Shown piece after piece: positions 42,441 through 59,225 of a DNA stretch of 64,000 nucleotides. The notes under the pieces are model-generated. The model searched no databases. It had not been told where the DNA came from and saw nothing but the letters and a program-made list of their open reading frames with translations. The position numbers and the translations under genes are program-made. The stretch's first letter is position 1. Every line of letters starts with the position of its first letter. Source of the stretch: Christiangramia sp. (GTDB taxonomy: Bacteria; Bacteroidota; Bacteroidia; Flavobacteriales; Flavobacteriaceae); the NCBI RefSeq assembly GCF_029937855.1, contig NZ_JAPYPC010000006.1:62001-126000 (forward strand), read 5' to 3'.

Positions 42441-44357
42441 ATGTTAGTTAATCCTCTGAAATTTCAAATCTGTTCAGTATTGTTTGTCTTTTTTTGCTGG
42501 ACTGGTTCTTCCCAGTCCGAAGATTTTTTCATTCCGCTTAACCTAAAAAAGGCATATGAATATGGGACGAGAGCAATGAATGGAGAACCCGGTGAAAACT
42601 ATTGGCAAAATTCAGCTGACTATAAGATGGAAATAATTTTTGATCCTGATACCAGAGAATTAAATGGCTCTTCAAAAATTTCCTATTCCAACAATAGTCC
42701 TGATACTTTAAGTGAGATAGTCATCCACACATTCCCTAATATCTTCAAAAGCGGAAGTGCCAGGGATAGGGATATTTATGATTCTGATGTTTCCAAAGGG
42801 CTTATTTTGGAAGAGTTGAAAATTGGGAATGAGTTAGTTATAAATAATGTCAAGAACCAGAATGGCAAACAAATCTATTCAGAAGCCACTTTTACAGTTA
42901 TTCCTTTAAAAATACCAATGTTGCCTAACTCAAAAACTGAGTTGGTGGTGGTTTGGAATTATACTTTGAACAAAGAAACACATCTTCGCACCGGCCAGAC
43001 AAGTGATACCGGATTTATGATAGCCTATTTTTTCCCCAGGATCGCCGTGTATGATGATATTGACGGATGGAATAAATACGCATATACCGGAAATACTGAA
43101 TTTTATAATGATTTTGGTGACTTTGAAGTTGAGATAAGCGTACCGGAGAATTACCTGGTTTGGGCCACCGGGCAATTAACCAATCCTTCCGAAGTATTGA
43201 AGGATAAATTTTATGAACGTTTTAAAGCTGCCCAAAAATCTGAACAAAAAATCGCTATCGTTGACTTTTCTGATATAGGAAAAGACATAACCTTATCAAA
43301 AACAGACAATACCTGGAAATACAGCGCGAAAAAGGTACCTGACTTTGCCTTTGCAACAGCAAAAAATTATATCTGGGGGGCACGCAGTGTAGATGTTAAC
43401 AGGGAAAGCGACCGGCTATTGACTATTCATACAGCCTATGATCCCAAATCAAAGGATTTTAAGAAAGTTAATGAATTTACGAAAGAATCAATAGAATATA
43501 TGACATCGGTATTTCCTAAAGTCGATTTTCCTTTTGAAAACCATACTGTTTTTAACGGATTAGGAATGATGGAGTACCCTATGATGGCCAATGATAGATC
43601 TTTTGAGGATTTACATCGAAGCCGATGGCTTACCCACCATGAAACCTTTCATTCTTATTTTCCCTTTCTTACAGGTTTAAATGAAACGAAATATGCCTGG
43701 CTGGATGAAGGATTGGCCATGTATGGAACCAATGAATTTTTGAGAAGTATAAATTCTCCACTTAAAGATGAGATAGGTTTTCAAAACTTTGACGGAAGAA
43801 TAGGATATGATTCAGATTTTCCCATTTTTGCAGTATCAAAATATCTCAAAAATCCCACCTATTACAACAACTCTTATCCAAAGGCAACAGCTTTTTTTCT
43901 GGTGATAAGGGAATATTTAGGGCAGGAAGAATTTACTTCTTTTATTCAGAAGTTTGTTAGTGTCTGGAAGGGGAAACATCCTACAGCCCTTGATTTTCTT
44001 TTTTTACTCAATGAATCAACCCCCGAAGATTTAACCTGGCTAATAAAACCCTGGATTTTTGAATTTGGTTACGTCGATCTTTCTATTGGAAATGTGACTT
44101 CTACTGAAGAAGGTTATAAGATCAATATTGAAAATAAGGGTAATTATCCTGTGCCTGTGTACTTAGATGTCACCTATAAAGATGGAACTACAGCTAACAT
44201 ATTAAGGCCAGTAAGGGTATGGCAAAACGGAGAAAAGAACTTCCTGATTTCGCTTGGGACGAATAAGGAAATTCAAAAATTAGTTTTAAGGGATATTAGT
44301 CTGATTGATGCGAATCCTGGAAATAATATTTTTACTTTTAAAACAAGGTCGCCATAG
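42441..44357 (+). CDS. M1-family zinc metallopeptidase
   Basis: A 638-residue secreted peptidase: signal peptide (ICSVLFVFFCWTGSSQS), an N-terminal beta domain of the M1 type (about 45-310), then the catalytic domain. The zinc motif is HETFH (H400, E401, H404) with the third ligand E423 in WLDEGLAMYG, the correct 18-residue spacing. The exopeptidase motif is GMMEYPM in place of GAMEN. M1 enzymes remove N-terminal residues from peptides. It precedes the Lrp and SusCD genes, and could supply peptides to them. Confidence 0.9.
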   Translation: MLVNPLKFQICSVLFVFFCWTGSSQSEDFFIPLNLKKAYEYGTRAMNGEPGENYWQNSADYKMEIIFDPDTRELNGSSKISYSNNSPDTLSEIVIHTFPNIFKSGSARDRDIYDSDVSKGLILEELKIGNELVINNVKNQNGKQIYSEATFTVIPLKIPMLPNSKTELVVVWNYTLNKETHLRTGQTSDTGFMIAYFFPRIAVYDDIDGWNKYAYTGNTEFYNDFGDFEVEISVPENYLVWATGQLTNPSEVLKDKFYERFKAAQKSEQKIAIVDFSDIGKDITLSKTDNTWKYSAKKVPDFAFATAKNYIWGARSVDVNRESDRLLTIHTAYDPKSKDFKKVNEFTKESIEYMTSVFPKVDFPFENHTVFNGLGMMEYPMMANDRSFEDLHRSRWLTHHETFHSYFPFLTGLNETKYAWLDEGLAMYGTNEFLRSINSPLKDEIGFQNFDGRIGYDSDFPIFAVSKYLKNPTYYNNSYPKATAFFLVIREYLGQEEFTSFIQKFVSVWKGKHPTALDFLFLLNESTPEDLTWLIKPWIFEFGYVDLSIGNVTSTEEGYKINIENKGNYPVPVYLDVTYKDGTTANILRPVRVWQNGEKNFLISLGTNKEIQKLVLRDISLIDANPGNNIFTFKTRSP

Positions 44358-44380
44358 TACCTCCGCAAAAGGTCAAAAGA

Positions 44381-44851
44381 CTATTTCAACAAATTCAGGT
44401 CAGGCTGGGCAAATTTAAGCACTCGCAAATACATATTAGAAGCGCTGTTATAAACACCGTCAATGGAAGAAATTCGCTTATTAATTACTTCAATAAGGTG
44501 ATTATTGTCGCGGCACATCACATCGATTTCTAAATCATAGTCACCCGATGTTATTGCTAAAAAGCTAACTTCTCTAAATTCCAGGAGCTTATTAGCTACA
44601 TCATCAATTTTATTTGCTGGGCGAACCGCAATTTTAATATTTGCATAAGCATTAAACCCGAGCTTGTCTGGATTAACCCTGCCGAGGATATGAATGGTTT
44701 TATCCTCGATTAATTTGGTGACTCTAGTTCTAATTGTGCTAATTGAAGCTCCTGTTTCCTTAGCCATCACAGTAAAAGAAGCCCTTCCGTCATTTTGTAA
44801 GTAAGACATGATTGTAAAATCAAGTTCATCGAGAGAATTATTTAAATCCAT
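44381..44851 (-). CDS. Lrp/AsnC-family transcription regulator
   Basis: A 156-residue regulator with the Lrp helix-turn-helix (about 5-65: LDFTIMSYLQNDGRASFTVM, then GASISTIRTRVTKLIED) and a RAM ligand-binding domain (about 75-150: FNAYANIKIAVRP, SGDYDLEIDVMCRDNNHL, VYNSASNMYLRVLKF). Such proteins sense amino acids. It is divergent from the SusC gene with a 194-base gap that contains a perfect palindrome, so it is the likely regulator of the adjacent importer and catabolic genes. Confidence 0.9.
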   Translation of the reverse strand: MDLNNSLDELDFTIMSYLQNDGRASFTVMAKETGASISTIRTRVTKLIEDKTIHILGRVNPDKLGFNAYANIKIAVRPANKIDDVANKLLEFREVSFLAITSGDYDLEIDVMCRDNNHLIEVINKRISSIDGVYNSASNMYLRVLKFAQPDLNLLK

Positions 44852-44972
44852 TGTATCATGTTATATATGAGCAAATTTAAGTAAAAATTGGCATTTAGGC
44901 CTTTCTAAAACACATAGTTTAAAAAATGCAATTTAGTGCTGTAAAAAAAATAAAATTATTTTTTTTGAATAT

Positions 44973-44986
44973 TTTTTTGCAAAAAA
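44973..44986. promoter_or_regulatory. palindrome upstream of susC, candidate Lrp-type operator
   Basis: TTTTTTGCAAAAAA is a perfect 14-base palindrome, 59 bases before the SusC start and 121 bases before the Lrp start. A matching TATTTTGCAAAATA lies upstream of the dehydrogenase gene (51843-51856), and the flanks there (T-run, G, ATATT) are also alike. Confidence 0.45.
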
Positions 44987-45045
44987 GTTTTTTATTAAGA
45001 AAAATTTAGCAATTTTAGTGTTCTAATTAATTTCAATCAGAAGCA

Positions 45046-48000
45046 ATGAAAAAAAGATTAAAATCAATTTTAGTACTGTTTGCTGTTTTGATAGTGCATA
45101 TCTCATCTGCACAACAAGAAAAAACTATAACAGGAACAGTAATAGACGGAGATGGCTTACCTCTTCCTGGAGTAAACGTTCTGGTTAAAAATACAAATAG
45201 GGGGGTACAAACAGATTTTGATGGGAATTACACAATTCAAGCAGCTGAAGGGGAGGTGCTGGTCTTTTCTTTCCTCGGTCTTTCTACTGGAGAATATACA
45301 GTAGGCGATACAAGTATTATCGATGTGGTTATGGAAGCAGGAGAATCTCAATTAGATGAGGTGGTGGTTACCGCATTGGGAATTGAAAGAAAGCCAAAAG
45401 AACTTTCTTATTCTGTTTCCTCACTGGATGAAGAGGAACTAACAAATACCAAGTCAGTCAATGCAGCAACTGCCATGATAGGTAAAGTTTCAGGTTTACA
45501 AATTAATACCACAAATAATGGGGTGAATCCAAATACCAGAGTGGTATTAAGAGGGAACAGATCTCTGTTAGGTAATAATGAAGCTCTTATTGTAGTAGAT
45601 GGTTTTCCAGCTCCTAGAGGAGTTTTAGATCAAATTAACCCTAATGACATTAAAGAAATGACCATTCTTAAAGGCGCTAATGCTTCTGCTTTATATGGAT
45701 CTGATGCCGCAAATGGTGTAATTGTGATCACCACCAAAAAAGGTAATGGCAAGTTAACTGTCACTTATAATACCAACTACGAGCAACAGTCAGTAGCTTA
45801 TCTTCCTGAGTTTCAGGATGAATTTGGACCAGGAGGATTCCCAGATGGTACTTTTTACCCCCTGGAAAATGTGAACTGGGGACCACGTTTTGATGGACGA
45901 CCGGCTGCCATTAGTGAAGTTCTTTTAGATGGTTCGGTATTGGAAGCACCCTATTCACCCATTGAAAATAGGAATGAAAATTTTTTTGATACGGGCAGTA
46001 CCATAAGGCATGGTATAACCATAGGAGGAGGAGATGAAAAAGGTGATTTGCTACTTTCAGTAGATCATACTAATACAAAAGGAATTATACCTAAAGATAG
46101 ATATAATAGAACAAATTTCCGGGTAAAAGGTAGTCGTACCTATGAGAATTTAACTATAGGAGGGAATGTTTCATTTTTTAGAAGTCATAGAAATATTGTT
46201 GGAAATGGGGGGCGACAGGGAAGGCCGGTTTATTGGAATGTCCTCAATACACCCTTAAACGTTCCTCTTACTGAATTGAAAGACTGGCGTACAGGAAGGT
46301 TTACGAGAAATGAGGTCTCTTTTTTCCGCTTTTATGAAAATCCTTATTTTATTATAGACACACAAAGGTGGAAATACGATAGCAGCGAATTTATTGCTTT
46401 GGCAGATATTAATTACAAGTTCAATGAGTGGATCAACGCTACAATTAGAGTAGGACATACAGTAGATGTTAATGAATTTAAACAGGAATTTGGAGCTTAT
46501 ACGTATGCATTTAGACTACCTGATGCATATGCTAATGGTATTCCAGAATATGGCGCTAGTACAGCAGATAACTTGAATACATCCTCTAGAACAAATAGCG
46601 ATTTTCTTTTAAATTTTAACCGTGAAATTGCTGATAATTTTTCTGCTAATCTTACTTTAGGACATAATTTGAGGATTCAAAGTTTTAGAAGGGTAAATGT
46701 AAGTGGGCAAGATTTAATTATCCCAGATTTCTATAATGTTTCTACAAGAACTGGAAACTTAGAAGGAGGTGAATTCAGTTCACAATATAGAAAGATGGGT
46801 GTCTATGGTGATCTCACATTAGGTTATAGCGACTTTTTATTTTTAAACGCAACAGCTCGAAATGATTGGTCTTCTACCTTATCTCAGGAGAATAGGTCTT
46901 TTTTCTATCCTGGCGTCGGGATTTCGTTTATACCTACCGAGGCTTTTCCTCAATTAATAGGGGATCAGGGAATCAGTTATTTAAAATTTAGTGCCAATAT
47001 AACTAAAACGGGAAATGATCCTGGTGTTTACCAAAACGCGAGTACTTTTTTTGCTCCTCAAGAATCTTTTGCCGGCAATCCAGGCACGGGATTTTTTCCA
47101 TATGGATCCACTCCTGGTCTTTCACAATCGGGAATAGATAGAGACCCTGATTTAAGCCCTGAATTTACTACTTCCAAGGAGGCAGGTATAGAATTTGGTT
47201 TCTTTAAGAACAGATTTACCGGGAATGTAACTGTTTACCAAACCAATTCTACGGACCAAATAATACCTGTAAATATATCCCTTGCTTCAGGAGCTTCGAG
47301 TCGTATTATTAATATTGGTGAAGTGGAAAATAGAGGGTTGGAAGTTGATTTTAATGCCCGCATACTTCAAACCGATGATTTTTCTTGGAAAATAGGAGGT
47401 AATTATTCTGGTTTCAAATCAGAGGTAAAGTCATTGGCTGAAGGTGTGGATCAACTGTCTATTGGGGGAATTGCTACGGCAGAAATAGTGGCCAGGGTAG
47501 GAGAACCTTTTCCTTTACTAAGTACTACCGCTTACGAAAGGGATGATGAGGGAAGGGTAGTTGTTGGAGCAAATGGAAATCCAATCCAAGCCGGTGGCAA
47601 TGAAATAATGGGTAAAACTGTGCCAGATTATGTAGTAGGTGTAAATACAAATATCACTTTTAAAAATTTCAATTTATATGCCGTGGCAGATTATAGGACC
47701 GGCCATGTATTTTATAATAACCTTGTAAATGCATTGCGATTTACAGGATTGGCTCAGCATAGTGCCAGCTCCAATAGGCAACCATTTGTATTTCCAAACT
47801 CTTCCTATGCGGATGGAAATGGCGGATTTGTGGAAAACACCAATAGGCCAACCACCAGTGGGGGTTTTAATTTCTTTAACGGTACTTATGGTTCCATTAA
47901 CGAGAATTATGTTACAGATGCGACCGTTTTAAAATTAAGGGAAGTTTTATTATCTTATAACTTTGGTGGAGACCTTTTAAATACTTTAAACCTTCAAACC

Positions 48001-48174
48001 TTCTCTTTAGGTTTGTATGGTAGAAACCTCCTCACTATCAGGCCAGCAGAAAATGTTTATACCGATCCTGAATTTAACCGTGATACTAGTAATGCAAATG
48101 AAATTGGTTTTGGCACACAAACGCAATCACCGCCAACAAGACAGTATGGAATTACCCTAACGGCAAAATTTTAA
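45046..48174 (+). CDS. SusC/RagA-type TonB-dependent outer-membrane importer
   Basis: A 1,042-residue protein with signal peptide (ILVLFAVLIVHISSAQQ), a carboxypeptidase-regulatory-like domain (about 27-105: GTVIDGDGLPLPGVNVLVKN), a TonB plug (about 110-235: LDEVVVTALG, VVLRGNRSLLGNNEALIVVDG, SALYGSDAANGVIVITTKKG) and a beta barrel ending in ITLTAKF. It imports substrates too large for porins together with its SusD lid. Neighbours indicate peptides rather than glycans: no glycoside hydrolase is present, but there are peptidases and amino-acid catabolic genes. The T-rich upstream region carries a candidate operator. Confidence 0.93.
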   Translation: MKKRLKSILVLFAVLIVHISSAQQEKTITGTVIDGDGLPLPGVNVLVKNTNRGVQTDFDGNYTIQAAEGEVLVFSFLGLSTGEYTVGDTSIIDVVMEAGESQLDEVVVTALGIERKPKELSYSVSSLDEEELTNTKSVNAATAMIGKVSGLQINTTNNGVNPNTRVVLRGNRSLLGNNEALIVVDGFPAPRGVLDQINPNDIKEMTILKGANASALYGSDAANGVIVITTKKGNGKLTVTYNTNYEQQSVAYLPEFQDEFGPGGFPDGTFYPLENVNWGPRFDGRPAAISEVLLDGSVLEAPYSPIENRNENFFDTGSTIRHGITIGGGDEKGDLLLSVDHTNTKGIIPKDRYNRTNFRVKGSRTYENLTIGGNVSFFRSHRNIVGNGGRQGRPVYWNVLNTPLNVPLTELKDWRTGRFTRNEVSFFRFYENPYFIIDTQRWKYDSSEFIALADINYKFNEWINATIRVGHTVDVNEFKQEFGAYTYAFRLPDAYANGIPEYGASTADNLNTSSRTNSDFLLNFNREIADNFSANLTLGHNLRIQSFRRVNVSGQDLIIPDFYNVSTRTGNLEGGEFSSQYRKMGVYGDLTLGYSDFLFLNATARNDWSSTLSQENRSFFYPGVGISFIPTEAFPQLIGDQGISYLKFSANITKTGNDPGVYQNASTFFAPQESFAGNPGTGFFPYGSTPGLSQSGIDRDPDLSPEFTTSKEAGIEFGFFKNRFTGNVTVYQTNSTDQIIPVNISLASGASSRIINIGEVENRGLEVDFNARILQTDDFSWKIGGNYSGFKSEVKSLAEGVDQLSIGGIATAEIVARVGEPFPLLSTTAYERDDEGRVVVGANGNPIQAGGNEIMGKTVPDYVVGVNTNITFKNFNLYAVADYRTGHVFYNNLVNALRFTGLAQHSASSNRQPFVFPNSSYADGNGGFVENTNRPTTSGGFNFFNGTYGSINENYVTDATVLKLREVLLSYNFGGDLLNTLNLQTFSLGLYGRNLLTIRPAENVYTDPEFNRDTSNANEIGFGTQTQSPPTRQYGITLTAKF

Positions 48175-48185
48175 AAATTTAAATT

Positions 48186-49685
48186 ATGAAGGCAAAACTT
48201 ATAAAATCAACTTTAATGATTCTGTTTTTGCTGCTTATTGGCTGCAGCACTGATAGTTTTCTGGACGTTAATGACAATCCTAATGATCCACCAATTTCTA
48301 CGCCACAACTTGCCTTACCCGTGGCCCAGCAAAGCTTTGCCTCATTAAATGCAACCTGGATGACCTATTTGGGGCAGTGGTTTGTATACAACTGGGCTTC
48401 ACCATCAGACTGGTCAGCAAATGGGGATTTGAAAAGATACAACATAGACAATACATTTTTCAGTGTTATTTTTGAGCAATCCTATGGTCCCATTTTTAGG
48501 AATCTTACCTATGCCGAAAATTATGAAGACCCTAGTGGGGCAGTAGATTATAGTGCTTATGATGTAATTTCTGAAACAATAAAAGGTTTTCAGTATCAGT
48601 ACCTAGTAGATTTGTATGGGGATATTCCCTTTACCGAGGCTAATTTCAGAGGGGAAAATCCTACTCCTGCCTATGATGATGCTGAATTTGTTTATAAAAG
48701 CGTTATTGATTCTTTAACTTCTGCTGCAACACTTTCGCTTGACCTTCCTGAAAATGTGGAGAATCCAGGTTCCCAAGATATTATTTTTGGAGGGGATATG
48801 ACTAGGTGGGCACGATTTGCCAATACTATTAAACTCCGTATGTTGGTGCGGTTAAGTAATACCAACCAGGATCAATACATTCAAAATCAAATAGCTTCCA
48901 TAAATGCCAATAGCGCAGGATATATTCAGGCAGATGTAAACGCTAATCCGGGTTATTCTGATAATTCAGGACAGCAAAATCCTTTTTATGGATTTGTAGG
49001 AGCGGGTCCCTCCAACACCCAAATTAGTCGGGAAGATTATACAGTGGCTACAGATTTTGCAATTGATTATTTAAAAGAAACCAATGACCCGCGTTTAAGC
49101 AGAATATATGCGCCAGCAGCCAGTACGGGTGAGTTTAAGGGCGTTCCTCAGGCAACATCTTTAACACTTCAGGGCAATAGGGCTGATGAGGTATCTAAAA
49201 TAGGTCCTGGTTTGGTCAAGAGTTCTGAACAGGATCAACCTATCATGCTACTTGCCGAAGCTTTGTTTTTACAAGCTGAAGCTATGGTAAGAGGCTATAT
49301 TCCAGGTGGCGATAGTGGAGCACAGGAATTATATGAAATGGGCATAGAAGCTTCTTTTGAATTTTTAGGTGTTGAGGGTGGAGCTGAAGCTGCAGCTGAA
49401 TATTATAATCAAAATATTGAAAATGTAGGATGGGCTGCCTCACCTAATAAAATAGAAGCAATCATCACCCAAAAATATGTTGCTTTAAACGGTACTTCTT
49501 CTATTGAAGCCTGGATTGAACTTACCCGAACTGGTTATCCTGAAGGGGTTCCGGTTGCCCGGGAATCTGGCGGTGTTCGCCCGGTAAGGTTGTTGTACCC
49601 AGCTTCAGAAGTTTCAAGAAATGCTAATAATGTACCGGAGCAAACAGCTCAGGATGTGTTTACTAACCCACCATTTTGGAAATAA
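48186..49685 (+). CDS. SusD/RagB-type surface lipoprotein
   Basis: A 499-residue protein with a lipoprotein signal (ILFLLLIGCSTDSF, lipid Cys about residue 20) and the helical SusD-like_2 fold: QYQYLVDLYGDIPFTEA, then MTRWARFANTIKLRMLVRLS and a C-terminal region with QPIMLLAEALFLQAEAMVRG and WIELTRTGYPEG. It caps the SusC barrel and binds the substrate. It starts 11 bases after SusC, so the pair is translated together. Confidence 0.92.
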   Translation: MKAKLIKSTLMILFLLLIGCSTDSFLDVNDNPNDPPISTPQLALPVAQQSFASLNATWMTYLGQWFVYNWASPSDWSANGDLKRYNIDNTFFSVIFEQSYGPIFRNLTYAENYEDPSGAVDYSAYDVISETIKGFQYQYLVDLYGDIPFTEANFRGENPTPAYDDAEFVYKSVIDSLTSAATLSLDLPENVENPGSQDIIFGGDMTRWARFANTIKLRMLVRLSNTNQDQYIQNQIASINANSAGYIQADVNANPGYSDNSGQQNPFYGFVGAGPSNTQISREDYTVATDFAIDYLKETNDPRLSRIYAPAASTGEFKGVPQATSLTLQGNRADEVSKIGPGLVKSSEQDQPIMLLAEALFLQAEAMVRGYIPGGDSGAQELYEMGIEASFEFLGVEGGAEAAAEYYNQNIENVGWAASPNKIEAIITQKYVALNGTSSIEAWIELTRTGYPEGVPVARESGGVRPVRLLYPASEVSRNANNVPEQTAQDVFTNPPFWK

Positions 49686-49698
49686 AAATTTATAAAAA

Positions 49699-50229
49699 AT
49701 GAAAAATATATTTAATTTAAAACTTATCCCTTTCCTTATATTTGGTAGTTTATTTTTTAGCGCTTGCTTGGTAGATGATGATATTGTTAGGGATTATGGT
49801 AATGGGCCTAACCTTGTTGGTTTTCAAAGCACATCAACTACTCTTACTGTTGAGGTTGGCAGCGCTGAATCTTCTCTGGGAATCCCGCTTAGACTAATAG
49901 GCCCTTCTGTTTTTGAGCAAAATGAGGATGTAACTGTTGAAATTTCGGTTGGCCCTGGTTCAACTGCAGAGGAAGGGGTGCATTATCGTCTTGATTCTAA
50001 TACGGTTCAGTTTGATGTTCCAGGTGGGATAGATGTAGTTACAGGTGAGTTGCCAATTACTATTTTAACGGAGGGGATCAATGGACCTTTAGAAAACAAT
50101 CCTGTACTTAATCTTACAATTACATCAGTATCTTCAGAAGCTGATGTTGTAATTAACGAAAAAACAACTACTACTACGGTCACAATAGAATATATAAATC
50201 CTGAAGAGGAAACTGAGAGCTCTAATTGA
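49699..50229 (+). CDS. surface lipoprotein with Ig/Calx-beta-like fold
   Basis: A 176-residue protein with a lipoprotein signal (LIFGSLFFSACLVDDD, lipid Cys about residue 23) and a beta-sandwich pattern: TTLTVEVGSAESSLGIPLRL, EDVTVEISVGPGSTAEEGVHY, LNLTITSVSSEADVVI. It resembles the DUF4843/Calx-beta-like accessory lipoproteins that often follow SusCD pairs and probably binds ligand at the surface. It ends the importer operon: a terminator overlaps its stop codon. Confidence 0.75.
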   Translation: MKNIFNLKLIPFLIFGSLFFSACLVDDDIVRDYGNGPNLVGFQSTSTTLTVEVGSAESSLGIPLRLIGPSVFEQNEDVTVEISVGPGSTAEEGVHYRLDSNTVQFDVPGGIDVVTGELPITILTEGINGPLENNPVLNLTITSVSSEADVVINEKTTTTTVTIEYINPEEETESSN

Positions 50230-50262
50230 ATGAAATAGCATTCAAAACTGGGAGCTTTTTTT
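50218..50262 (+). terminator. rho-independent terminator of the SusCD operon
   Basis: AGCTC (50218-50222) pairs with GAGCT (50252-50256). Inside it TTGAATG (50226-50232) pairs with CATTCAA (50239-50245), and seven T residues follow. The stem includes the stop codon of the third gene. Confidence 0.75.
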
Positions 50263-50491
50263 AGTTATATATGTCGAAGCGGTTTGGTAGGTTGAATTAC
50301 GCCAGCTATTTAAACTATTTCCAATATCTTCCAAACCGCCTTGGCATTAGTAAACTGAAGGGGTGGGACAGGTATTTCCAGAGGCTCTAAATTTAAATAT
50401 TTTTTTTATTAGTCATGTTGCACAACCTAATAATACATAATATCAACTTTAGAATTGATTGCTAAATTCGGAAATTATCTCTAAGGAATAA
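50263..50491. other. gap with an imperfect long stem before the IS
   Basis: AAGCGGTTTGG (50277-50287) faces CCAAACCGCCTT (50331-50342), a long stem with one bulge and a 43-base loop. The rest is AT-rich without a gene. It might be a second terminator or the scar of an older insertion. Confidence 0.4.
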
Positions 50492-51494: not shown

Positions 51495-51915
51495 ATAAAT
51501 ATGTGTATGGAAAAAACGCAATCAATTGCTTTCTATCAAGTTAATTTACACGGTTTATCATTTTGCGTTTTTATCTTAAAAATTAGGTTAATAGATTATG
51601 AACCCTAAGATGAATCAAAAAATTGTCACTAATATTTTGTTCTATTTGAATTAAATAGAGTTGGACTTTTGATTACTTCCCAAAGTCTTTAAAGATTAAA
51701 ATAACCTTTCCAATAACTATAAAGTTTGTACTGATACGGTATTAAATTTATTATATGGAATAACTTTTCATGGAATATTAAAATAAAAAATAATTTTTGC
51801 ATTTATGTGACTAATAAAATAATATTTGTTTTTTTTGTATATTATTTTGCAAAATATATTGTTTTAAATACATTTATAAAAAAATTTACATAATTTACTA
51901 TAAAAGATTGAAAGT
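51495..51915. promoter_or_regulatory. upstream region of the catabolic operon
   Basis: A 421-base AT-rich gap. AAAAACGCAA (51512-51521) is the exact reverse complement of 51563-51572, with a 41-base loop. TATTTTGCAAAATA (51843-51856) is a perfect 14-base palindrome 60 bases before the dehydrogenase start, close to the spacing of the similar palindrome upstream of susC (59 bases). This suggests shared regulation of the two operons, possibly by the Lrp-type protein at 44381-44851. Confidence 0.5.
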
Positions 51916-53385
51916 ATGGGGAATCAAAATTTTAAATATCCAGAAATACAAAATTTTCTAAATGGCGCATTTGAAAATGGCGCTTTAGAAACTATGGAGG
52001 TTCGCTCCCCTTTAAATGGTAATCTTCTTTCCTCTGTACCTTTGTCAAACAGAAAAGTTCTTGATGAGGCTGTGGAATTCGCAGAAAAAGCATTTCCAGG
52101 GTGGAGGGACACGCCAATTAAAGAAAGATCGCAAATATTTTATAAATATCGCTCCTTACTGCAAGAGAATCTGGAAGAATTGACGGCTCTGGTTCGGGAG
52201 GAGAATGGAAAAACTTATGGTGAGGCCAAAGCTGAAATTGAAAAAAGCATGGAATTAACTGAATTTGCCTGTTCCATACCACAATTAATAGGTGATGAGA
52301 TTTTGGAAGTTAGCCGGGGTGTGGAATGCAGGGTAGAAAGAAGACCACTTGGAGTGGTTGCCAGTATTGTACCTTTCAATTTTCCCAGTATGGTACCGCA
52401 CTGGACCATCCCAAATGCATTGATGCTAGGTAATACAATGATTGTAAAACCTTCAGAAAAAGTGCCATTAAGCCTTGTTAGAGTAGCTGAATTGCTAAAG
52501 GAATCCGGCTTACCCGATGGTGTGTTTAACATTGTAAACGGGGACAGGGAAATTGTAGAGGCAATTTGTGATCATCCGGCAATTAAAGCCGTGTCTTTTG
52601 TGGGTTCTACAAATGTGGCCAAACTGGTTTATAAGAGGGCCACTTCAAATCTGAAAAGGGCACTGGCTTTGGGGGGAGCAAAGAATCATCTTGTAGTACT
52701 TCCTGATGCCCAAATTGATATGACAGCTAATAATGTGATTGCCTCCGTTACAGGTTGTGCGGGACAAAGATGTATGGCGGCTGCGGCCATGCTGGCGGTA
52801 GGCGAGACTGATCCTGTTATTGAAAAGATATGTGAAGCTGCAAGGAAACTGGTGCCGGGAGAAAATTTAGGCGCTGTTATTAGCAAGGAAGCGAAAGAGC
52901 GTATCGAGCGCTATATAACTGAATCAGAAGAACAAGGTGCAAAAATATTAGTAGATGGCCGCAATGCTAAAGTGGAAGGAGCCGAAGGGGGATATTATGT
53001 AGGCGCCACAGTAATTGATTATGTTACCCCAGATATGGCTATTGCAAAAGAGGAAGTTTTTGGACCGGTTTTATCTATAATCCGTACTAAAGATGTTTCG
53101 GAAGCCATGGCCATCGAAAATGCCAATCCTTATGGAAATGCCGCCGCTGTTTTCACGCAGAGTGGTGGAGCAGCACGCCAGGTAATAGAGAAAGCCTCAG
53201 CAGGAATGGTCGGGGTAAATATCGGAGTACCAGTGCCCAGGGAGCCGTTTTCTTTTGGGGGGTGGAATGACTCAAAATTCGGTGCCCTGGATATAACCGG
53301 AAAGAGTTCCATAGAATTCTGGACGCAGCTCAAAAAAGTGACCACTAAATGGAATGCTGAAGCCGGTATAAACTGGATGAGCTAA
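51916..53385 (+). CDS. mmsA: CoA-acylating (methyl)malonate-semialdehyde dehydrogenase
   Basis: A 489-residue ALDH-superfamily enzyme of the CoA-acylating MmsA/IolA branch. Evidence is PFNFPSMVPHWTIPNALMLG and NTMIVKPSEKVPLS in the cofactor domain, the branch-typical catalytic loop GCAGQRCMAAA with C286, and the EVFGPVLSI and GMVGVNIGVPVPREPFSF segments. It turns malonate semialdehyde or methylmalonate semialdehyde, NAD+ and CoA into acetyl- or propionyl-CoA with loss of CO2. The adjacent omega-aminotransferase would provide malonate semialdehyde from beta-alanine. First gene of the catabolic run; cytosolic. Confidence 0.88.
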   Translation: MGNQNFKYPEIQNFLNGAFENGALETMEVRSPLNGNLLSSVPLSNRKVLDEAVEFAEKAFPGWRDTPIKERSQIFYKYRSLLQENLEELTALVREENGKTYGEAKAEIEKSMELTEFACSIPQLIGDEILEVSRGVECRVERRPLGVVASIVPFNFPSMVPHWTIPNALMLGNTMIVKPSEKVPLSLVRVAELLKESGLPDGVFNIVNGDREIVEAICDHPAIKAVSFVGSTNVAKLVYKRATSNLKRALALGGAKNHLVVLPDAQIDMTANNVIASVTGCAGQRCMAAAAMLAVGETDPVIEKICEAARKLVPGENLGAVISKEAKERIERYITESEEQGAKILVDGRNAKVEGAEGGYYVGATVIDYVTPDMAIAKEEVFGPVLSIIRTKDVSEAMAIENANPYGNAAAVFTQSGGAARQVIEKASAGMVGVNIGVPVPREPFSFGGWNDSKFGALDITGKSSIEFWTQLKKVTTKWNAEAGINWMS

Positions 53386-53419
53386 TTTTTCTGAAATATA
53401 AAACTTAATCTCGCTAATC

Positions 53420-54754
53420 ATGTCATTATTACAGGCCGATCAACAAACTATATTGGATAATAATTTAAATCATACACTATTTTCCTGGTCCAAACAAAAA
53501 GGAATTTCCCCTTTATTGATTGAAAAAGCAAAAGGGGTTTATCTTCACACTTACGACGGAAAGAAAATTATCGATTTTTCTTCCGGACTTATGAATGTCA
53601 ATATTGGGCATGGGCATCAACGGGTTACTCGGGCAGTGGTAGACCAAATGGAAAAAGTAAGTTATGTAACCCCGGCCTGTGCCACTGAAGTACGTGGCGA
53701 ATTGGGAAAAAAGCTGGCTGAAATATGCCCCGGTGATCTCAATAAGGCTTTTTTTACCGTATGTGGCGCCACGGCTATTGAAAATGCCATTAAACTGGCG
53801 CGGTTATATACTGGCCGGCACAAAATATTGACGCGTTATCGCTCCTATCATGGATCTACTATGGGAGCCATGAGCGCAGGGGGTGATCCCAGAAAGCATA
53901 AAGTGGATGTTCACCAGGGGACTAATTTTGTTCATTTTGAAATTCCTTATGAATACAGGTCATCAGGAAAAAACTGGGAAAAAGAATGCGAGGAACAATT
54001 GGAACGAATTATTGCTTACGAAGGCCATGATAATATAGCGGCCATTATGATGGAAGGGGAATCAGGTTCTTCGGGATGCCTTAAACTTCCTCCCGGTTAT
54101 TGGAAAAAGCTCAGGGAAATCTGTGATAAATACGGAATATTACTTATTGCTGATGAGGTTATGAGTGGATTTGGACGCACCGGGAAGTGGTTCGGTGTAG
54201 ATAATTACGAAGTGGTCCCGGATCTTATGGCAATGGCCAAAGGGCTCACGAGTGGGTATTTGCCATTAGGGTGCTTAATGGTCAGCGATAAAATCGCTGC
54301 AAAATTTGACGAAGAAACCCTAGCTCTCGGCCTTACTTATTCTGCCCATGCTACTGCCTGTGCCGCAGCCTTGGAAGTAATTAAGATTTATGAGGATGAA
54401 AATCTACTGGAAAATGCCAGGGATATGGGACGGTATATTGAATCGGAAATTAAAAAATTGAAAGAAAAGCATCCTTCTATAGGTGATTTTCGCAATACGG
54501 GATTATTGGGATGCCTCGAACTTGTAAAAAATCGGAATACCAGAGAACCAATGGCTCCTTTTAATGCCAAACCAGAAGAGATGGAGGTTATCAACAAGGT
54601 GGCTGCCAAAATTAAGGAATTAGGTATGTACACCTTCGTTAGGTGGGGCTATATTTTTGTAGCGCCGCCCCTTTGCATCAACAAGGAAGAAATAGATGAA
54701 GGGCTGGCCATAATTTCTGAAGCATTAAAAATTGCAGATGCTTCTACAGTTTAA
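53420..54754 (+). CDS. class III (omega) aminotransferase
   Basis: A 444-residue PLP enzyme of fold type I, class III. It contains YLHTYDGKKIIDFSSGLMNV, then RYRSYHGSTMGAMSAGGDPR, IADEVMSGFGRTGKWF (D of the PLP-pyridine contact) and the Schiff-base lysine K274 in MAKGLTSGYLPLG. This class includes beta-alanine:pyruvate, 4-aminobutyrate and taurine aminotransferases. The pairing with an MmsA-type dehydrogenase, 34 bases upstream, points to omega-amino acids such as beta-alanine or beta-aminoisobutyrate as substrate. The exact substrate is inferred from context. Confidence 0.87.
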   Translation: MSLLQADQQTILDNNLNHTLFSWSKQKGISPLLIEKAKGVYLHTYDGKKIIDFSSGLMNVNIGHGHQRVTRAVVDQMEKVSYVTPACATEVRGELGKKLAEICPGDLNKAFFTVCGATAIENAIKLARLYTGRHKILTRYRSYHGSTMGAMSAGGDPRKHKVDVHQGTNFVHFEIPYEYRSSGKNWEKECEEQLERIIAYEGHDNIAAIMMEGESGSSGCLKLPPGYWKKLREICDKYGILLIADEVMSGFGRTGKWFGVDNYEVVPDLMAMAKGLTSGYLPLGCLMVSDKIAAKFDEETLALGLTYSAHATACAAALEVIKIYEDENLLENARDMGRYIESEIKKLKEKHPSIGDFRNTGLLGCLELVKNRNTREPMAPFNAKPEEMEVINKVAAKIKELGMYTFVRWGYIFVAPPLCINKEEIDEGLAIISEALKIADASTV

Positions 54755-54771
54755 ATTTTAAATAATTCAAC

Positions 54772-55965
54772 ATGACAATTTTTTCAGTTAAAAAATTAAT
54801 TCCGCAAATCCTATTTTTATTTATTATAAGTTTTGCTATTGCACAACAGGAGGAAAGGGCAAGGGATTTAGGTATCCCTTTTGAGGGAGAACCGGGAAAA
54901 TTTAATGCTATTACAGATGTTCCCGGTGTGGAAGTAGGCTTAACCACTATCATTGAAGGTGAAGGTGCATTAAGAACGGGTAAAGGCCCGGTGCGCACTG
55001 GCGTAACTGCCATCCTTCCACGCGGCAAAACTTATGACCCAGTGTTCGCGGGCTGGTATTCTTTTAACGGAAACGGAGAAATGACAGGTACTACCTGGGT
55101 AGAAGAATCCGGGTTTCTTGAGGGGCCGGTAATGATAACAAATACCCATAGTGTAGGAACAGTTAGGGATGCCGTAATTGAATGGCAGTTTCAGAATAAG
55201 TTTTTTCAGCCTCTTAACGGCACCAAAGATGTTTTCTGGGCTTTACCGGTAGTTGCCGAAACTTATGATGGAATTCTAAATGATATCAATGGATTTCACG
55301 TAAAAAAAGAACATGCTTTCCAGGCGTTGGACAGTGCAAAAACGGGATTTATAAAAGAAGGTGGGGTTGGTGGTGGTACAGGAATGATAGCTCACGGATT
55401 TAAAGGGGGAACAGGAACATCTTCCAGGATTATTGAAATTGATGGAAACAAATATACTGTAGGGGTTTTGGTGCAGGCAAATTACGGCAGCCGGAGAGAC
55501 CTTACCATAGGAGGAGTGCCTGTAGGAAGTGAAATTGACGTTCCTCAGAACAAAGTAAAACTGGGTAGTGAACCTGAAGGGGACACGGGTTCAATTATCG
55601 TTATTGTGGCCACAGATGCCCCATTGATGCCTCATCAGTTAAAACGACTTGCCAGGCGGGTACCGGTTGGAATTGCAAAAGTTGGTGGTTATGGCGGAAA
55701 TGGTTCGGGGGATATATTCCTCGCCTTTTCTACCGCAAATGAAGATGCTTCCAATCGTTCAGAAAATCAATCTATCAATACCATTCCCAATGACTGGATG
55801 AACCCGTTCTTTAAAGCAACCGCCCATGCTACTGAAGAAGCCATTATTAATGCGATAATTGCGGGTGAAACTATGGAGGGGATCAACGGAAACATTATCT
55901 ATGAACTTCCTCACGACAAGCTTATTGAATTGTTGAAAAAATACAACCGATATTCCCCTAAATAA
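54772..55965 (+). CDS. DmpA/BapA-type beta-aminopeptidase (P1/S58 family), secreted
   Basis: A 397-residue precursor with a signal peptide (ILFLFIISFAIAQQ). The body is typical of the self-cleaving Ntn hydrolases DmpA and BapA: FNAITDVPGVEVG, RTGVTAILPRG, MITNTHSVGTVRDAV, GGVGGGTGMIAHGFKGGTGT, VGVLVQANYG. The predicted autocleavage is between G273 and S274 in GDTGSIIVIVATDAPLMPHQ, which frees Ser274 as nucleophile. BapA-type enzymes release N-terminal beta-amino acids, including beta-alanine from dipeptides such as carnosine; DmpA also acts on D-residues. In this operon a beta-amino acid product matches the aminotransferase and dehydrogenase. The signal peptide places it in the periplasm. Confidence 0.87.
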   Translation: MTIFSVKKLIPQILFLFIISFAIAQQEERARDLGIPFEGEPGKFNAITDVPGVEVGLTTIIEGEGALRTGKGPVRTGVTAILPRGKTYDPVFAGWYSFNGNGEMTGTTWVEESGFLEGPVMITNTHSVGTVRDAVIEWQFQNKFFQPLNGTKDVFWALPVVAETYDGILNDINGFHVKKEHAFQALDSAKTGFIKEGGVGGGTGMIAHGFKGGTGTSSRIIEIDGNKYTVGVLVQANYGSRRDLTIGGVPVGSEIDVPQNKVKLGSEPEGDTGSIIVIVATDAPLMPHQLKRLARRVPVGIAKVGGYGGNGSGDIFLAFSTANEDASNRSENQSINTIPNDWMNPFFKATAHATEEAIINAIIAGETMEGINGNIIYELPHDKLIELLKKYNRYSPK

Positions 55966-55976
55966 AACTACAGTTT

Positions 55977-57413
55977 ATGAGAAGTTACTATGTTGTACTG
56001 GTATTATTCTTATCATTTTTAGCCTTCCCGTCATCTGCTCAAGAAGTACTAAATGAAGCAAAATCTGCTGAAATTGATGCTTACGTGCGGGAGGAAATGA
56101 AAGAAAGACAAATCCCGGGACTCGCTCTCGCGGTAGTACAAAATGGTAAAATCATCAAAGAAAAAGGCTACGGCCTGGCAGATATTCAACATCAGGTACC
56201 TGTAGAAACCAACACTGTATTCGAGTTGGCTTCCATCACAAAACAATTTACAGCTTCTGCTATTATGATCCTTCAGCAGGAAGGCAAACTTGATGTGGAT
56301 GATAAAATAGGACTTTATCTTGACGATGCGCCAGAGAACTGGAATGAAGTTAGCATTCGGCACCTTCTTACTCATACTTCGGGACTTCCGGTTATTGGCA
56401 GGGGATTTTCAGGTTATGATAAAATGTCAAGAGAAGATTTATTAAAATTAAGCAGGGTCAACTTTACAAAGGAACTGGCTTATACCGGGGCAAAATCTGA
56501 TACCTTGGTTCAGCCACCTGGCGAAAAATACGTTTATAGTGACGTGGCTTTTTTCCTGCTCGGTGTTATTGTACAAAATGTGAGCGGGATGCCTTATAGG
56601 GATTTTATTCAGGAAAGGATATTTGATCCTGTAGGAATGAGTGAAACCTATATTCTGGATCAGGTAAAAATTCATCCGAATGAAGCCCGCGGGTATACTT
56701 TAAGAGATGGAGAACTGGTCAATATCAGAAGGATCTGGGAATATGAGATTCCTTCACATTACGGAGTGTTTTCTACAGTTGGAGATCTTGCAAAGTGGGA
56801 TAAAGCCCTTTATTCCGAAGAAATTCTTACCAATAAAAGCAAAGAGCAGATGTGGCAGCCTATGATGCGAAACAATGGGATACCTTCCCCTTATGGATTT
56901 GGGTGGACCATCTGGTTACGGGAGGATAAAAAGATTATAGATCATACCGGGATTACGGGTACTCAAATCACCAGGTTTCTAAATGATAGTCTAACGGTTA
57001 TAGTTCTTACCAATCTTGGCCAAAGGGGGAATTCGAATGTAAGGTCATGGGGTTTAAGTTCAAAAATAGGAGACATGGCTGGTGCCAGTCGTATTTATAT
57101 TGACAACGAATATACAACCCTAACAGGTGCAAAGGTATTGAAGAATCAGCCTGGTAAAAAATTGAAAGAACTGGTAGGTGATTATAAAATGTCAGGCTCC
57201 GGAGCTGAGAGGAAAATATATTTCGAGAACGAAAAACTATTTTATAAGAATGGAGACGGGATAAACCAACTCGTCGCCCTGGATAATGATCAATATCTTA
57301 TGCTGGGAACTACAGATGAGTGGTTACTGGAAAAAGTACCCGGAGAGAATAAATTACAATGGCGCTATAAAGGACAAAAAAGTGGCATGATGGAAAAAAC
57401 AGAAAACAAATAA
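55977..57413 (+). CDS. secreted beta-lactamase-fold serine hydrolase
   Basis: A 478-residue protein with a signal peptide (VVLVLFLSFLAFPSSAQ). The class C beta-lactamase/DD-peptidase fold has SITK at S86-K89, YSD at Y187-D189 and the third motif region DHTGITG; a C-terminal DUF3471-like domain occupies about 390-475. Relatives include D-aminopeptidases, esterases and beta-lactam hydrolases. Within this operon, 11 bases after the beta-aminopeptidase, a peptidase acting on unusual peptides is more likely than antibiotic resistance. This is inference from context. Confidence 0.85.
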   Translation: MRSYYVVLVLFLSFLAFPSSAQEVLNEAKSAEIDAYVREEMKERQIPGLALAVVQNGKIIKEKGYGLADIQHQVPVETNTVFELASITKQFTASAIMILQQEGKLDVDDKIGLYLDDAPENWNEVSIRHLLTHTSGLPVIGRGFSGYDKMSREDLLKLSRVNFTKELAYTGAKSDTLVQPPGEKYVYSDVAFFLLGVIVQNVSGMPYRDFIQERIFDPVGMSETYILDQVKIHPNEARGYTLRDGELVNIRRIWEYEIPSHYGVFSTVGDLAKWDKALYSEEILTNKSKEQMWQPMMRNNGIPSPYGFGWTIWLREDKKIIDHTGITGTQITRFLNDSLTVIVLTNLGQRGNSNVRSWGLSSKIGDMAGASRIYIDNEYTTLTGAKVLKNQPGKKLKELVGDYKMSGSGAERKIYFENEKLFYKNGDGINQLVALDNDQYLMLGTTDEWLLEKVPGENKLQWRYKGQKSGMMEKTENK

Positions 57414-57414
57414 T

Positions 57415-59067
57415 ATGGCTGTACAAAATGAGGGATGGGGATCCCGGGTTGGACTTATTCTGGCCATGGCAGGAAATGCTGTGGGAATGTCCAATTTTCT
57501 TCGCTTTCCCGTTCAGGCTGTTCAAAATGGCGGCGGTGCGTTTATCATTCCTTATTTGGTTTGCTTTTTGGTTATCGGGGTGCCCCTTCTTTGGGTGGAA
57601 TGGAGTATGGGCAGGGTCGGGGGAAAATATGGGCATCACTCCACCCCCTTCATTATGGATACCATGGGTAAAAACCGGTTATGGAAATACATCGGGGTTT
57701 TTGGTATATGGACCAATATTGCCATAGCTGCTTATTATTGTTATCTGGAATCCTGGACCCTATCTTATATGTTCCATTCCATTTTCGGAAGTTTTGAGGG
57801 CCTGGATCAAAATGAGGTAGCTTCTTTTTTTGACAATTATATCAATTTAGGCACTTCTACTTTTGGAATTCCATGGGAGCCGGTATTTTTCTTTCTAATT
57901 TGCCTATTATTAAACACTTATATCCTTTCTAAAGGTTTGGAGAAAGGAGTAGAGAAAGTGGCCAAAATAGGTGTTCCCTTACTTATTGTATTCGGAATAT
58001 TCATAGCTATTAAAGGTTCAACAATAGATGCCGGTGAAGAGGGGGCAATTTTTGATAGCCTTGACGGATTGAATTTTTTATGGACTCCTAATTTTACCGA
58101 TATGTGGTCGCCTTCAGTATGGCTCGCTGCTGCAGGCCAGGTTTTCTTTACGCTATCCATTGGTATGGGAACCGTGCATTGCTATGCGTCTTATGTAAAA
58201 GCCAAAGATGATATTGCTTTGAGTGCCATGTCTTCCGGCTGGATGAATGAATTTGTTGAAGTCGTTATTGGAAGTTTTATTCTTATCCCTATTGGGGTGG
58301 CTTATTTGGGGTTGGATGGTTTAAAGGAGTTGGTAAATTTGGGAGCTCTTAGTTTAGGATTTAAAACTCTGCCTTATCTTTTTATGCAATGGGGAGAAGT
58401 ATTTGGGGCTATTTCCTCTTTCCTCTTTTTCAGTTTATTGTTTTTTGCCGGGATCACTTCTTCACTGGCGATGGGAACCCCCTGGATAGGATTTCTAAAA
58501 GATGAATTCAATTGGAGACATAAACCAGCTGCATGGTCTTTCGGACTTATAATCCTGGTACTTGCTTTACCGACTATTTTCTTTTTTAAATATGGCGTAT
58601 TTGATGAATATGATTATTGGGCAGGAACGGTTTCGCTAGTGATCTTTGCGCTTTTGGAATCGATACTCTTTGCCTGGGGATTTGGAATTACCCGGGGCTG
58701 GGAAGAAATTACTGCAAATGCGGAAATCAAAGTTCCAAATATTTACAAATTCATCATCAAATTTGTTACCCCGCTATTATTGCTTTGGGTTTTCATTGGT
58801 TCTCTTGTTACTCCGGAAAATGGAGATTGGGAGGCTGCCTTTCAGGGAAATTGGGTGCTGGATGATAGCTCCATCATTAAAAAACTGATGAATTCCGGGA
58901 TAAAGAATGAACTCGCTATCGCTACAGATCCAATTAAGATAGAGTTTCTGCAAAACCAGCTATTCTATGTAAATGCCTCCAGGATTTTATTGGTAACCGT
59001 ATTTATAGCTTTCGCCGTATTGGTTTATCTCGCTTACAAAAGAAGAATGAAAAAAATAAACGTATGA
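57415..59067 (+). CDS. sodium-dependent amino-acid transporter (NSS/SNF family)
   Basis: A 550-residue inner-membrane transporter with 11-12 helices. The NSS signature is at the N-terminus: SRVGLILAMAGNAVGMSNFL and RFPVQAVQNGGGAFIIPYL, where the unwound helix 1 binds sodium and substrate. Helix 6 carries FFTLSIGMGTVHCYASYVK. NSS proteins co-transport amino acids with sodium. It starts one base after the hydrolase stop and is followed by a MetS-like small subunit. Most likely it imports the beta-amino acid or amino acids released in the periplasm; the substrate is inferred. Confidence 0.92.
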   Translation: MAVQNEGWGSRVGLILAMAGNAVGMSNFLRFPVQAVQNGGGAFIIPYLVCFLVIGVPLLWVEWSMGRVGGKYGHHSTPFIMDTMGKNRLWKYIGVFGIWTNIAIAAYYCYLESWTLSYMFHSIFGSFEGLDQNEVASFFDNYINLGTSTFGIPWEPVFFFLICLLLNTYILSKGLEKGVEKVAKIGVPLLIVFGIFIAIKGSTIDAGEEGAIFDSLDGLNFLWTPNFTDMWSPSVWLAAAGQVFFTLSIGMGTVHCYASYVKAKDDIALSAMSSGWMNEFVEVVIGSFILIPIGVAYLGLDGLKELVNLGALSLGFKTLPYLFMQWGEVFGAISSFLFFSLLFFAGITSSLAMGTPWIGFLKDEFNWRHKPAAWSFGLIILVLALPTIFFFKYGVFDEYDYWAGTVSLVIFALLESILFAWGFGITRGWEEITANAEIKVPNIYKFIIKFVTPLLLLWVFIGSLVTPENGDWEAAFQGNWVLDDSSIIKKLMNSGIKNELAIATDPIKIEFLQNQLFYVNASRILLVTVFIAFAVLVYLAYKRRMKKINV

Positions 59068-59225
59068 ATATTTCTGCCTTGATCCTGATGATAGTTACTG
59101 TGGGTACCGTTGCGGGCGTTACCATATATTTATTCGTGAAGGTTTTACGAACACCACCTAATCCTGAACCCGATTCGTATAATGCGAATGATGATGTTGA
59201 AGAACGTCAAAAGGATTCAGAATGA
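59064..59225 (+). CDS. MetS-like small subunit of the NSS transporter
   Basis: A 53-codon gene whose ATG overlaps the transporter stop (ATGA, 59064-59067). It encodes MNISALILMIVTVGTVAGVT followed by IYLFVKVLRTPPNPEPD and an acidic tail, that is one transmembrane helix (about 3-26) with a cytosolic Pro/acidic end. This is the size, place and shape of MetS, the small subunit that the MetP-type NSS transporters require. Too short for most automatic gene calls. Confidence 0.75.
   Translation: MNISALILMIVTVGTVAGVTIYLFVKVLRTPPNPEPDSYNANDDVEERQKDSE

Follow-up and report, generated by a model that had tools for sequence, protein, structure and literature searches.

Genes and layout of the locus

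In the 64,000-nucleotide stretch of Christiangramia sp. DNA analysed here (the window, located on contig C78; the genome measures 3.9 Mb), a class III aminotransferase and a CoA-acylating (methyl)malonate-semialdehyde dehydrogenase (MMSDH) are encoded in the same run of genes as an aminopeptidase of family S58 (DmpA/BapA), with an Lrp-type regulator and a SusC/SusD pair (SusCD) upstream. The first-pass annotation of this region had proposed a SusCD-based locus for the use of peptides containing beta-amino acids. Every gene that it had named was confirmed, both in position and in family (an IS1595 transposase, a shortened lipoprotein and a broken sulfatase had gone unmentioned), and our overall assessment is that its gene content was right, its beta-alanine assignment probably so, and its view of SusCD bold. 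The nearest named relative at the locus is Muricauda sp. CP2A (Flavobacteriaceae; hereafter CP2A). The features are the following, the signal peptides being calls made by eye, with no prediction program:

42441-44357, + strand: M1-family peptidase with a signal peptide, by eye (PF01433)
44381-44851, - strand: Lrp/AsnC regulator, probable regulator of the beta-alanine module (AsnC/Lrp models, orthologue group)
44975-44984, + strand: TTTTGCAAAA palindrome, candidate Lrp operator, between Lrp and SusC
45046-48174, + strand: SusC/RagA-type TonB-dependent transporter (TIGR04056, 579.8 bits)
48186-49685, + strand: SusD-like lipoprotein (PF12771)
49699-50229, + strand: lipoprotein, shorter than its relatives (very weak DUF4843 match)
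50489-51497, + strand: IS1595-family element (transposase open reading frame, ORF, at 50563-51468; PF12762)
51845-51854, + strand: TTTTGCAAAA palindrome, candidate Lrp operator, upstream of MMSDH
51916-53385, + strand: MMSDH, CoA-acylating (TIGR01722, 531.8 bits, cut-off 448.5)
53420-54754, + strand: class III aminotransferase, of beta-alanine type by context (PF00202; NF004718, 497 bits, cut-off 472)
54772-55965, + strand: S58 (DmpA/BapA) aminopeptidase with a signal peptide, by eye (PF03576, 394.9 bits)
55977-57413, + strand: S12 beta-lactamase-fold hydrolase with a signal peptide, by eye (PF00144)
57415-59067, + strand: LeuT-like sodium-coupled amino-acid transporter (NSS; PF00209)
59064-59225, + strand: MetS-like small membrane protein, near-identical in CP2A
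59222-60087, + strand: sulfatase, truncated and frame-broken, overlapping the MetS-like ORF by 4 bp

The run from the MMSDH to the sulfatase is a single operon by spacing (its genes up to the MetS-like one had been noted as one run): the successive gaps between MMSDH, aminotransferase, S58, S12, NSS, MetS-like ORF and sulfatase are 34, 17, 11, 1, -4 and -4 bp. SusC, SusD and the lipoprotein (gaps of 11 and 13 bp) form a unit apart from this catabolic operon, and the interval that separates the lipoprotein from the MMSDH is made up of 333 bp, the IS1595 transposase ORF and a further 447 bp (1.7 kb in all). The insertion sequence (IS) ends in 36-nt imperfect inverted repeats (78%), at 50489-50524 and 51462-51497. 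The catabolic ORFs, as well as S58, S12, NSS, SusC and SusD, are uninterrupted, and their family matches span most of each protein.

The proposed beta-alanine module and its probable regulator

The adjoining aminotransferase and MMSDH are read here as a beta-alanine (malonate semialdehyde) module, an assignment that is well supported because their orthologues sit inside reductive pyrimidine clusters. PMC7332683 lists a beta-alanine aminotransferase and a malonic semialdehyde dehydrogenase in Pyd clusters, the breakdown of uracil yielding beta-alanine. We compared 44 aminotransferase loci of Bacteroidota (24 neighbourhoods from the family and 20 of 30 further ones from the phylum, the latter comprising 18 at 60% identity or above and 2 of the 12 at 41-44%). 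An MMSDH at 60% identity or above is present in 40 of them, and 36 contain at least one pyrimidine marker (dihydropyrimidinase, PreA, CN hydrolase or NCS1). At one locus (L209), PreA (667 bits), dihydropyrimidinase (589.5), NCS1 (369), MMSDH (519) and the aminotransferase all exceed their model cut-offs, the labels PreT-like and CN hydrolase (ureidopropionase-type) being our own, as no model passed its cut-off there. Additionally, two Deinococcus plasmid regions (among four plasmid regions opened) hold dihydropyrimidinase, a PucR regulator, the aminotransferase and the MMSDH together. The beta-alanine route that had been proposed for the two genes is supported by this context.

For the aminotransferase tree the program warned of long branches, that of L225 among them. 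The window and CP2A group in it with two loci, L207 and L208 (100/99), the enclosing set of nine (100/97) includes the pyrimidine-cluster loci L303, L305 and L306, and this set is nested in a Bacteroidota set of 43, mostly pyrimidine-cluster loci. At L207 (7586-10624) and L208 (1116-4125), which come from two small genomes, the aminotransferase (75-76%) adjoins a protein that looks amidohydrolase-like by eye. The MMSDHs of the window and CP2A form a branch of their own within the Bacteroidota set, with no supported sister. As to distribution, no aminotransferase above 36% identity was found in other members of the genus (24 genomes searched); relatives at 61-76% occur in 24 of 396 other genomes of the family (one of them partial, and one more genome having a match at 35%), and 32 of 395 genomes of the phylum, our own included, pass 1e-100. 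Dihydropyrimidine dehydrogenase, dihydropyrimidinase and ureidopropionase are not in the operon (the dehydrogenase and the ureidopropionase were not searched for genome-wide), the best dihydropyrimidinase match of the genome is just 29%, and no second close MMSDH copy was found in it (next match 30%). The simplest view of the pair is that of the tail of a pyrimidine pathway without its head.

The Lrp of the window is a member of a distinct orthologue group, found at 88% identity in CP2A and at 55-61% in five other genomes (G581, G732, G588, G728 and G612), all other Lrp matches in the 16 genomes searched lying at 26-34%. The orthologue is adjacent and divergent to MMSDH in G581, G732, G588 and G728; in G612 (56%) it lies on a different contig from MMSDH, and at L225 an Lrp of 50% identity stands about 5 kb from MMSDH, beside another aminotransferase. 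SusCD and the IS stand, in the window, exactly between Lrp and MMSDH, in place of this direct divergence, so that the simplest history would be the insertion of SusCD into an earlier Lrp-MMSDH unit. We consider this Lrp a probable regulator of the beta-alanine module, with beta-alanine as its presumed ligand.

A perfect palindrome, TTTTGCAAAA, is located both between Lrp and SusC and before the MMSDH, with a third copy at 36776-36785; three copies in 64 kb compare with 0.59 expected and were reached in 2 of 100 shuffles, and a perfect 10-bp palindrome with G/C shared by both regions arose in 6 of 5000 shuffles, the motif having been picked post hoc, after inspection. It is present upstream of none of ten SusC relatives, of none of the 30 usable MMSDH genes without Lrp (three of which have the 7-mer TGCAAAA) and, in full, of none of the four distant Lrp-linked MMSDH genes (two of which have the 7-mer). 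Taking the seven Lrp/operon-type promoter regions together, TGCAAAA occurs in five (22 of 1000 shuffles reach five) and the best 6-mer in six (32 of 1000), and the best 8-mer is at chance level (451 of 1000). A 16-bp extension of TTTTGCAAAA has a single occurrence in the window, as chance would predict (0.97). The palindrome is a candidate Lrp operator, to be taken as a lead and not as proof.

The peptidase, its companions and the SusCD block

The assignment of the S58 peptidase to the DmpA/BapA family is borne out, DmpA being its nearest solved structure (1.9e-107), followed by BapA (1.1e-96). The PF03576 match covers positions 1-305 of 307, and the alignment with 1b65 retains TGS at the cleavage site (Gly-Ser), QAN, GSGD and ETYDG, this last motif as in DmpA (BapA has ETLDN). 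These active-site residues and a variable Tyr146 are listed in PMC9570944, and DmpA is reported to be active on carnosine in that paper and in PMC9235088. The protein is the single S58 match of the genome and, because of the signal peptides seen by eye, both it and the S12 hydrolase are expected to act in the periplasm.

Of 397 genomes of the family, 88 have S58 matches. Neighbourhoods were inspected at 140 S58 loci, many of them short (the best 80 of 459 named relatives, and 60 from the family, of which 50 are at 53% identity or above and 10 lower), and a class III aminotransferase match was found in four of them (L002, L021, L035 and L036). In CP2A (L002) the S58 gene adjoins the aminotransferase (86%) and the order MMSDH-aminotransferase-S58-NSS is kept; in an Acidobacteria locus (L021, aminotransferase at 48%) the order is MMSDH-aminotransferase-S58. 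Among 287 Acidobacteriota genomes, the aminotransferase is present in 23, with S58 adjacent in G865 (which holds L021) and in G1076 (L330, convergent). The S58 tree (46 of 145 rows, by a quick method and with many weak forks) groups L021 with L017 and G1076 with G950, both apart from the window and CP2A, and these distinct sub-lineages favour separate pairings with the aminotransferase. The pairing of S58 with the module is thus rare but suggestive, being present in two flavobacteria and perhaps repeated elsewhere. The neighbourhood search that had been recommended earlier has a divided outcome: S58 beside the module does recur (in CP2A and in Acidobacteriota), and no recurrence of the linkage to SusCD was found. 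No plasmid record was common to S58 and MMSDH among the matches listed (60 of 165 and 60 of 287, respectively; 15 of 116 aminotransferase and 15 of 64 S58 records were also listed), and no S58 peptidase in a beta-alanine operon was found in titles and abstracts among the literature matches listed. The use of S58 alone as a marker of beta-peptide use was rejected, because 136 of the 140 loci have no class III aminotransferase match.

The S12 hydrolase has 2qmi as its nearest solved structure, and its solved matches include D-peptidases and a D-aminopeptidase. In 9 of 51 S58 loci of the family (L118 and eight others, with identity established partly by eye), an S12-like gene lies at most three ORFs from S58 on the same strand; no beta-alanine genes were found in those nine loci. 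The nearest solved relative of the NSS is LeuT (~1e-117), from whose chain it differs at some positions that we take to line the pocket, and its substrate may possibly be small. The MetS-like ORF that follows is almost identical in CP2A and has no Pfam match; in Peptoclostridium, an NSS gene has an annotated MetS-family subunit as its neighbour. The CP2A sulfatase is intact (526 aa, L002 5991-7571) and comes after the same genes, and therefore the sulfatase probably once belonged to the operon. The stretch that follows the CP2A operon (L002 7576-13045) encodes an amino-acid permease, a Cys/Met-metabolism pyridoxal-phosphate enzyme and two more sulfatase-like genes.

Concerning the adjacent SusC, SusD and lipoprotein genes, SusC is nearest to BT_2264 among solved structures (3.1e-128, against 1.5e-46 for the next), whose cavity reportedly accommodates peptides (PMC11817032), and for SusD the partner protein BT_2263 is the eleventh solved match (2.6e-22, against 2e-30 for 5j5u). 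Relatives of SusD at 1e-60 were found in 10 of 197 other genomes (three at 61-66% and seven at 37-45%), and in each of the ten neighbourhoods SusC is accompanied by a lipoprotein-like ORF, 268-310 aa long (the match in L269 being weak). Within 12-20 kb of these, two of the ten neighbourhoods being cut by contig ends, no match at 1e-5 to M1, Lrp, MMSDH, aminotransferase, S58, S12 or NSS was found in any. Conversely, the window-type SusD is found in none of the 140 S58 neighbourhoods, two of which have a distant SusC (22-28%). With the IS lying between the two blocks as well, the SusCD linkage on which the first-pass annotation had built its locus was rejected as a conserved trait (SusD in 198 genomes, ten neighbourhoods). 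The window lipoprotein, of 176 aa, is 92-134 aa shorter than its ten relatives and matches just the first 113 to 177 residues of the three checked, with no significant remnant of the missing part downstream.

The CP2A locus that holds Lrp (L332) has M1 (61%) on one side of this gene and, upstream of it, breaks off after 137 bp, and the other CP2A contig starts inside MMSDH; since the sequence stops on both sides, the linkage of SusCD to the operon is seen in one genome only. Across the 140 S58, 10 SusCD and 44 aminotransferase loci, M1 was not found beyond this neighbour of the CP2A Lrp, and it is probably a mere neighbour. SusCD, in turn, is probably a later neighbour of the beta-alanine operon, any partnership between them being unproven, and no SusCD system with beta-peptide cargo was found in titles and abstracts among the literature matches listed.

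Proposed working and comparison with known systems

We propose, with a probability of about 0.6, that the locus is a beta-alanine operon under Lrp control, derived from the pyrimidine pathway and supplied by a periplasmic DmpA-type dipeptidase. The operon (51916-59225) would carry the terminal steps of the reductive pyrimidine pathway together with their own Lrp, severed from the uracil-degrading genes, and the DmpA-type dipeptidase would be the replacement supply of the severed module. Small peptides with N-terminal beta-alanine (carnosine-like) would enter the periplasm, where the secreted S58, perhaps together with S12, would free beta-alanine; the LeuT-like NSS and its small subunit would then drive sodium-coupled inward transport of beta-alanine or of the partner amino acid. 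In the cytoplasmic steps, the aminotransferase would yield malonate semialdehyde, which the MMSDH would convert into acetyl-CoA and CO2, while Lrp would sense beta-alanine and act at the TTTTGCAAAA sites. SusCD may carry the peptides across the outer membrane, a role that this proposal does not require.

Several observations weigh against this proposal. On the side of the module, no pyrimidine marker is found in eight of the 44 loci (L207, L208, L212, L225, L230, L304, L309 and L320, with L212 and L230 on contigs below 5 kb); L207 and L208 hold the nearest aminotransferase relatives after CP2A, yet have neither MMSDH nor markers beside them, and a 42% aminotransferase relative on a Ruegeria plasmid has no MMSDH or pyrimidine genes annotated nearby. 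On the side of the peptidase, S58 is absent from all 44 Bacteroidota aminotransferase loci, the window-type aminotransferase is found in just 2 of the 140 S58 loci (L002 and L021), and in L035 and L036, two close Gemmatimonadota, S58 follows a different class III aminotransferase (33-34%), distant in the tree. When G865, which had been chosen for its linkage, is left out, one adjacency in 22 Acidobacteriota genomes compares with 0.048 expected (P ~0.05 only). The Tyr of ETYD is present in 65 of 145 S58 rows (26 unscored) and is therefore not special; DmpA also cleaves alpha- and D-peptides, so that S58 need not supply beta-alanine and may or may not prefer beta- to alpha-peptides. Finally, LeuT is an alpha-amino-acid carrier, and in CP2A no credible trace of S12 was detected in the 228 bp between S58 and NSS.

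Some of these points lend themselves to another explanation, in which S58 and S12 are bystanders, acting as alpha- or D-peptide aminopeptidases (for example on cell-wall fragments), and the operon burns free beta-alanine imported by the NSS. The rarity of class III aminotransferases at S58 loci (many of which are short), the S12-like genes near S58 where no beta-alanine gene was found, and the D-peptidases among the solved matches of S12 are all in keeping with it; we regard it nonetheless as unlikely, given a shared operon whose genes lie 1 to 34 bp apart, a gene order retained in CP2A and the pairing of S58 with the same module in Acidobacteriota. The aminotransferase could also belong, as a taurine:2-oxoglutarate enzyme, to a taurine or amino-sulfonate operon with its own sulfatase. 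Its best solved match is indeed such an enzyme (6jix, 9e-97 against 1e-78 for the next), which speaks against our proposal too, and the gene at the end of the operon is a sulfatase, intact in CP2A. This reading is held to be very unlikely indeed, because the preceding gene is a CoA-acylating MMSDH above the curated cut-off and the orthologues belong to clusters for pyrimidine breakdown, which gives beta-alanine (no search was made for other genes of a taurine pathway).

A broader reading would join SusCD, the lipoprotein, M1 and the catabolic run into one beta-peptide locus, with SusCD as dedicated importer under the same Lrp. It draws on the closeness of SusC to BT_2264, on SusCD being directly divergent to Lrp, on the M1-Lrp adjacency that CP2A shares, and on the perfect TTTTGCAAAA at both Lrp/SusC and MMSDH, which SusC relatives and MMSDH genes without Lrp do not have. 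All ten SusCD relatives, however, are without every other gene of the locus, the IS occupies part of the 1.7 kb that separates the blocks, the lipoprotein is shortened, the linkage comes from one genome only, and SusD does not share the closeness to BT2263-2264; the palindrome, besides being post hoc and extending to 16 bp only at chance level, may serve Lrp alone. We find this reading possible but doubtful. Its more specific form, the peptide equivalent of a polysaccharide utilization locus, in which SusCD, captured between Lrp and operon, would import beta-alanyl peptides for periplasmic cleavage by S58/S12 and uptake of the residue by NSS, with a beta-alanine-sensing Lrp switching both units through TTTTGCAAAA, seems quite unlikely. 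Lastly, the truncated sulfatase, the shortened lipoprotein and the IS insertion might mark a decaying mosaic that no longer works; for this there is only a slight chance, the catabolic ORFs, S58, S12, NSS, SusC and SusD being open and near full length in their family matches.

Operons for beta-alanine are known, those of the bau genes of P. aeruginosa including a permease. Our proposed operon resembles the Pyd clusters (PMC7332683) in its orthologous, adjacent aminotransferase and MMSDH, to which four genomes add a divergent Lrp of the window group, and differs in having no PreA/PreT, dihydropyrimidinase, CN hydrolase or NCS1, with S58, S12, NSS and the MetS-like ORF instead. The transaminase/dehydrogenase operon of Pseudomonas sp. 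AAC (KES23458/KES23460) was shown to turn beta-alanine into acetyl-CoA with a transaminase and an MMSDH-type dehydrogenase; the likeness is one of gene type, the excerpt of PMC4907197 mentions no peptidase, and the window has an Lrp. BarR of Sulfolobus acidocaldarius is likewise of Lrp type; its gene runs divergently from that of a beta-alanine aminotransferase, which it activates, and it binds beta-alanine (PMC4977709). It is archaeal and uses another DNA motif, and the likeness is one of arrangement. Peptide SusCD systems have been described, RagAB among them, and SusC of the window is nearest to BT_2264; the part of PMC11817032 seen gives RagAB and BT2263-2264 no link to beta-amino acids, and the window SusD is nearer to other SusD structures.

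A further comparison is the one with DmpA and BapA (PDB 1b65 and 3n2w), with which the window S58 shares near full-length homology, the Gly-Ser site and the DmpA-type ETYDG. To our knowledge, the natural role of these beta-aminopeptidases is unsettled, and they have been studied as catalysts for carnosine synthesis. Tying a DmpA-type peptidase to a pyrimidine-derived beta-alanine pathway with a candidate regulator would offer a concrete, testable physiological role; it suggests that a catabolic tail may have switched its supply from nucleobases to peptides, and the fact that Acidobacteriota repeat the pairing with other S58 sub-lineages hints at more than one such event. Whereas DmpA and BapA are treated as single enzymes in the available portions of PMC9235088 and PMC9570944, the S58 peptidase of the window would stand inside a beta-alanine catabolic operon.

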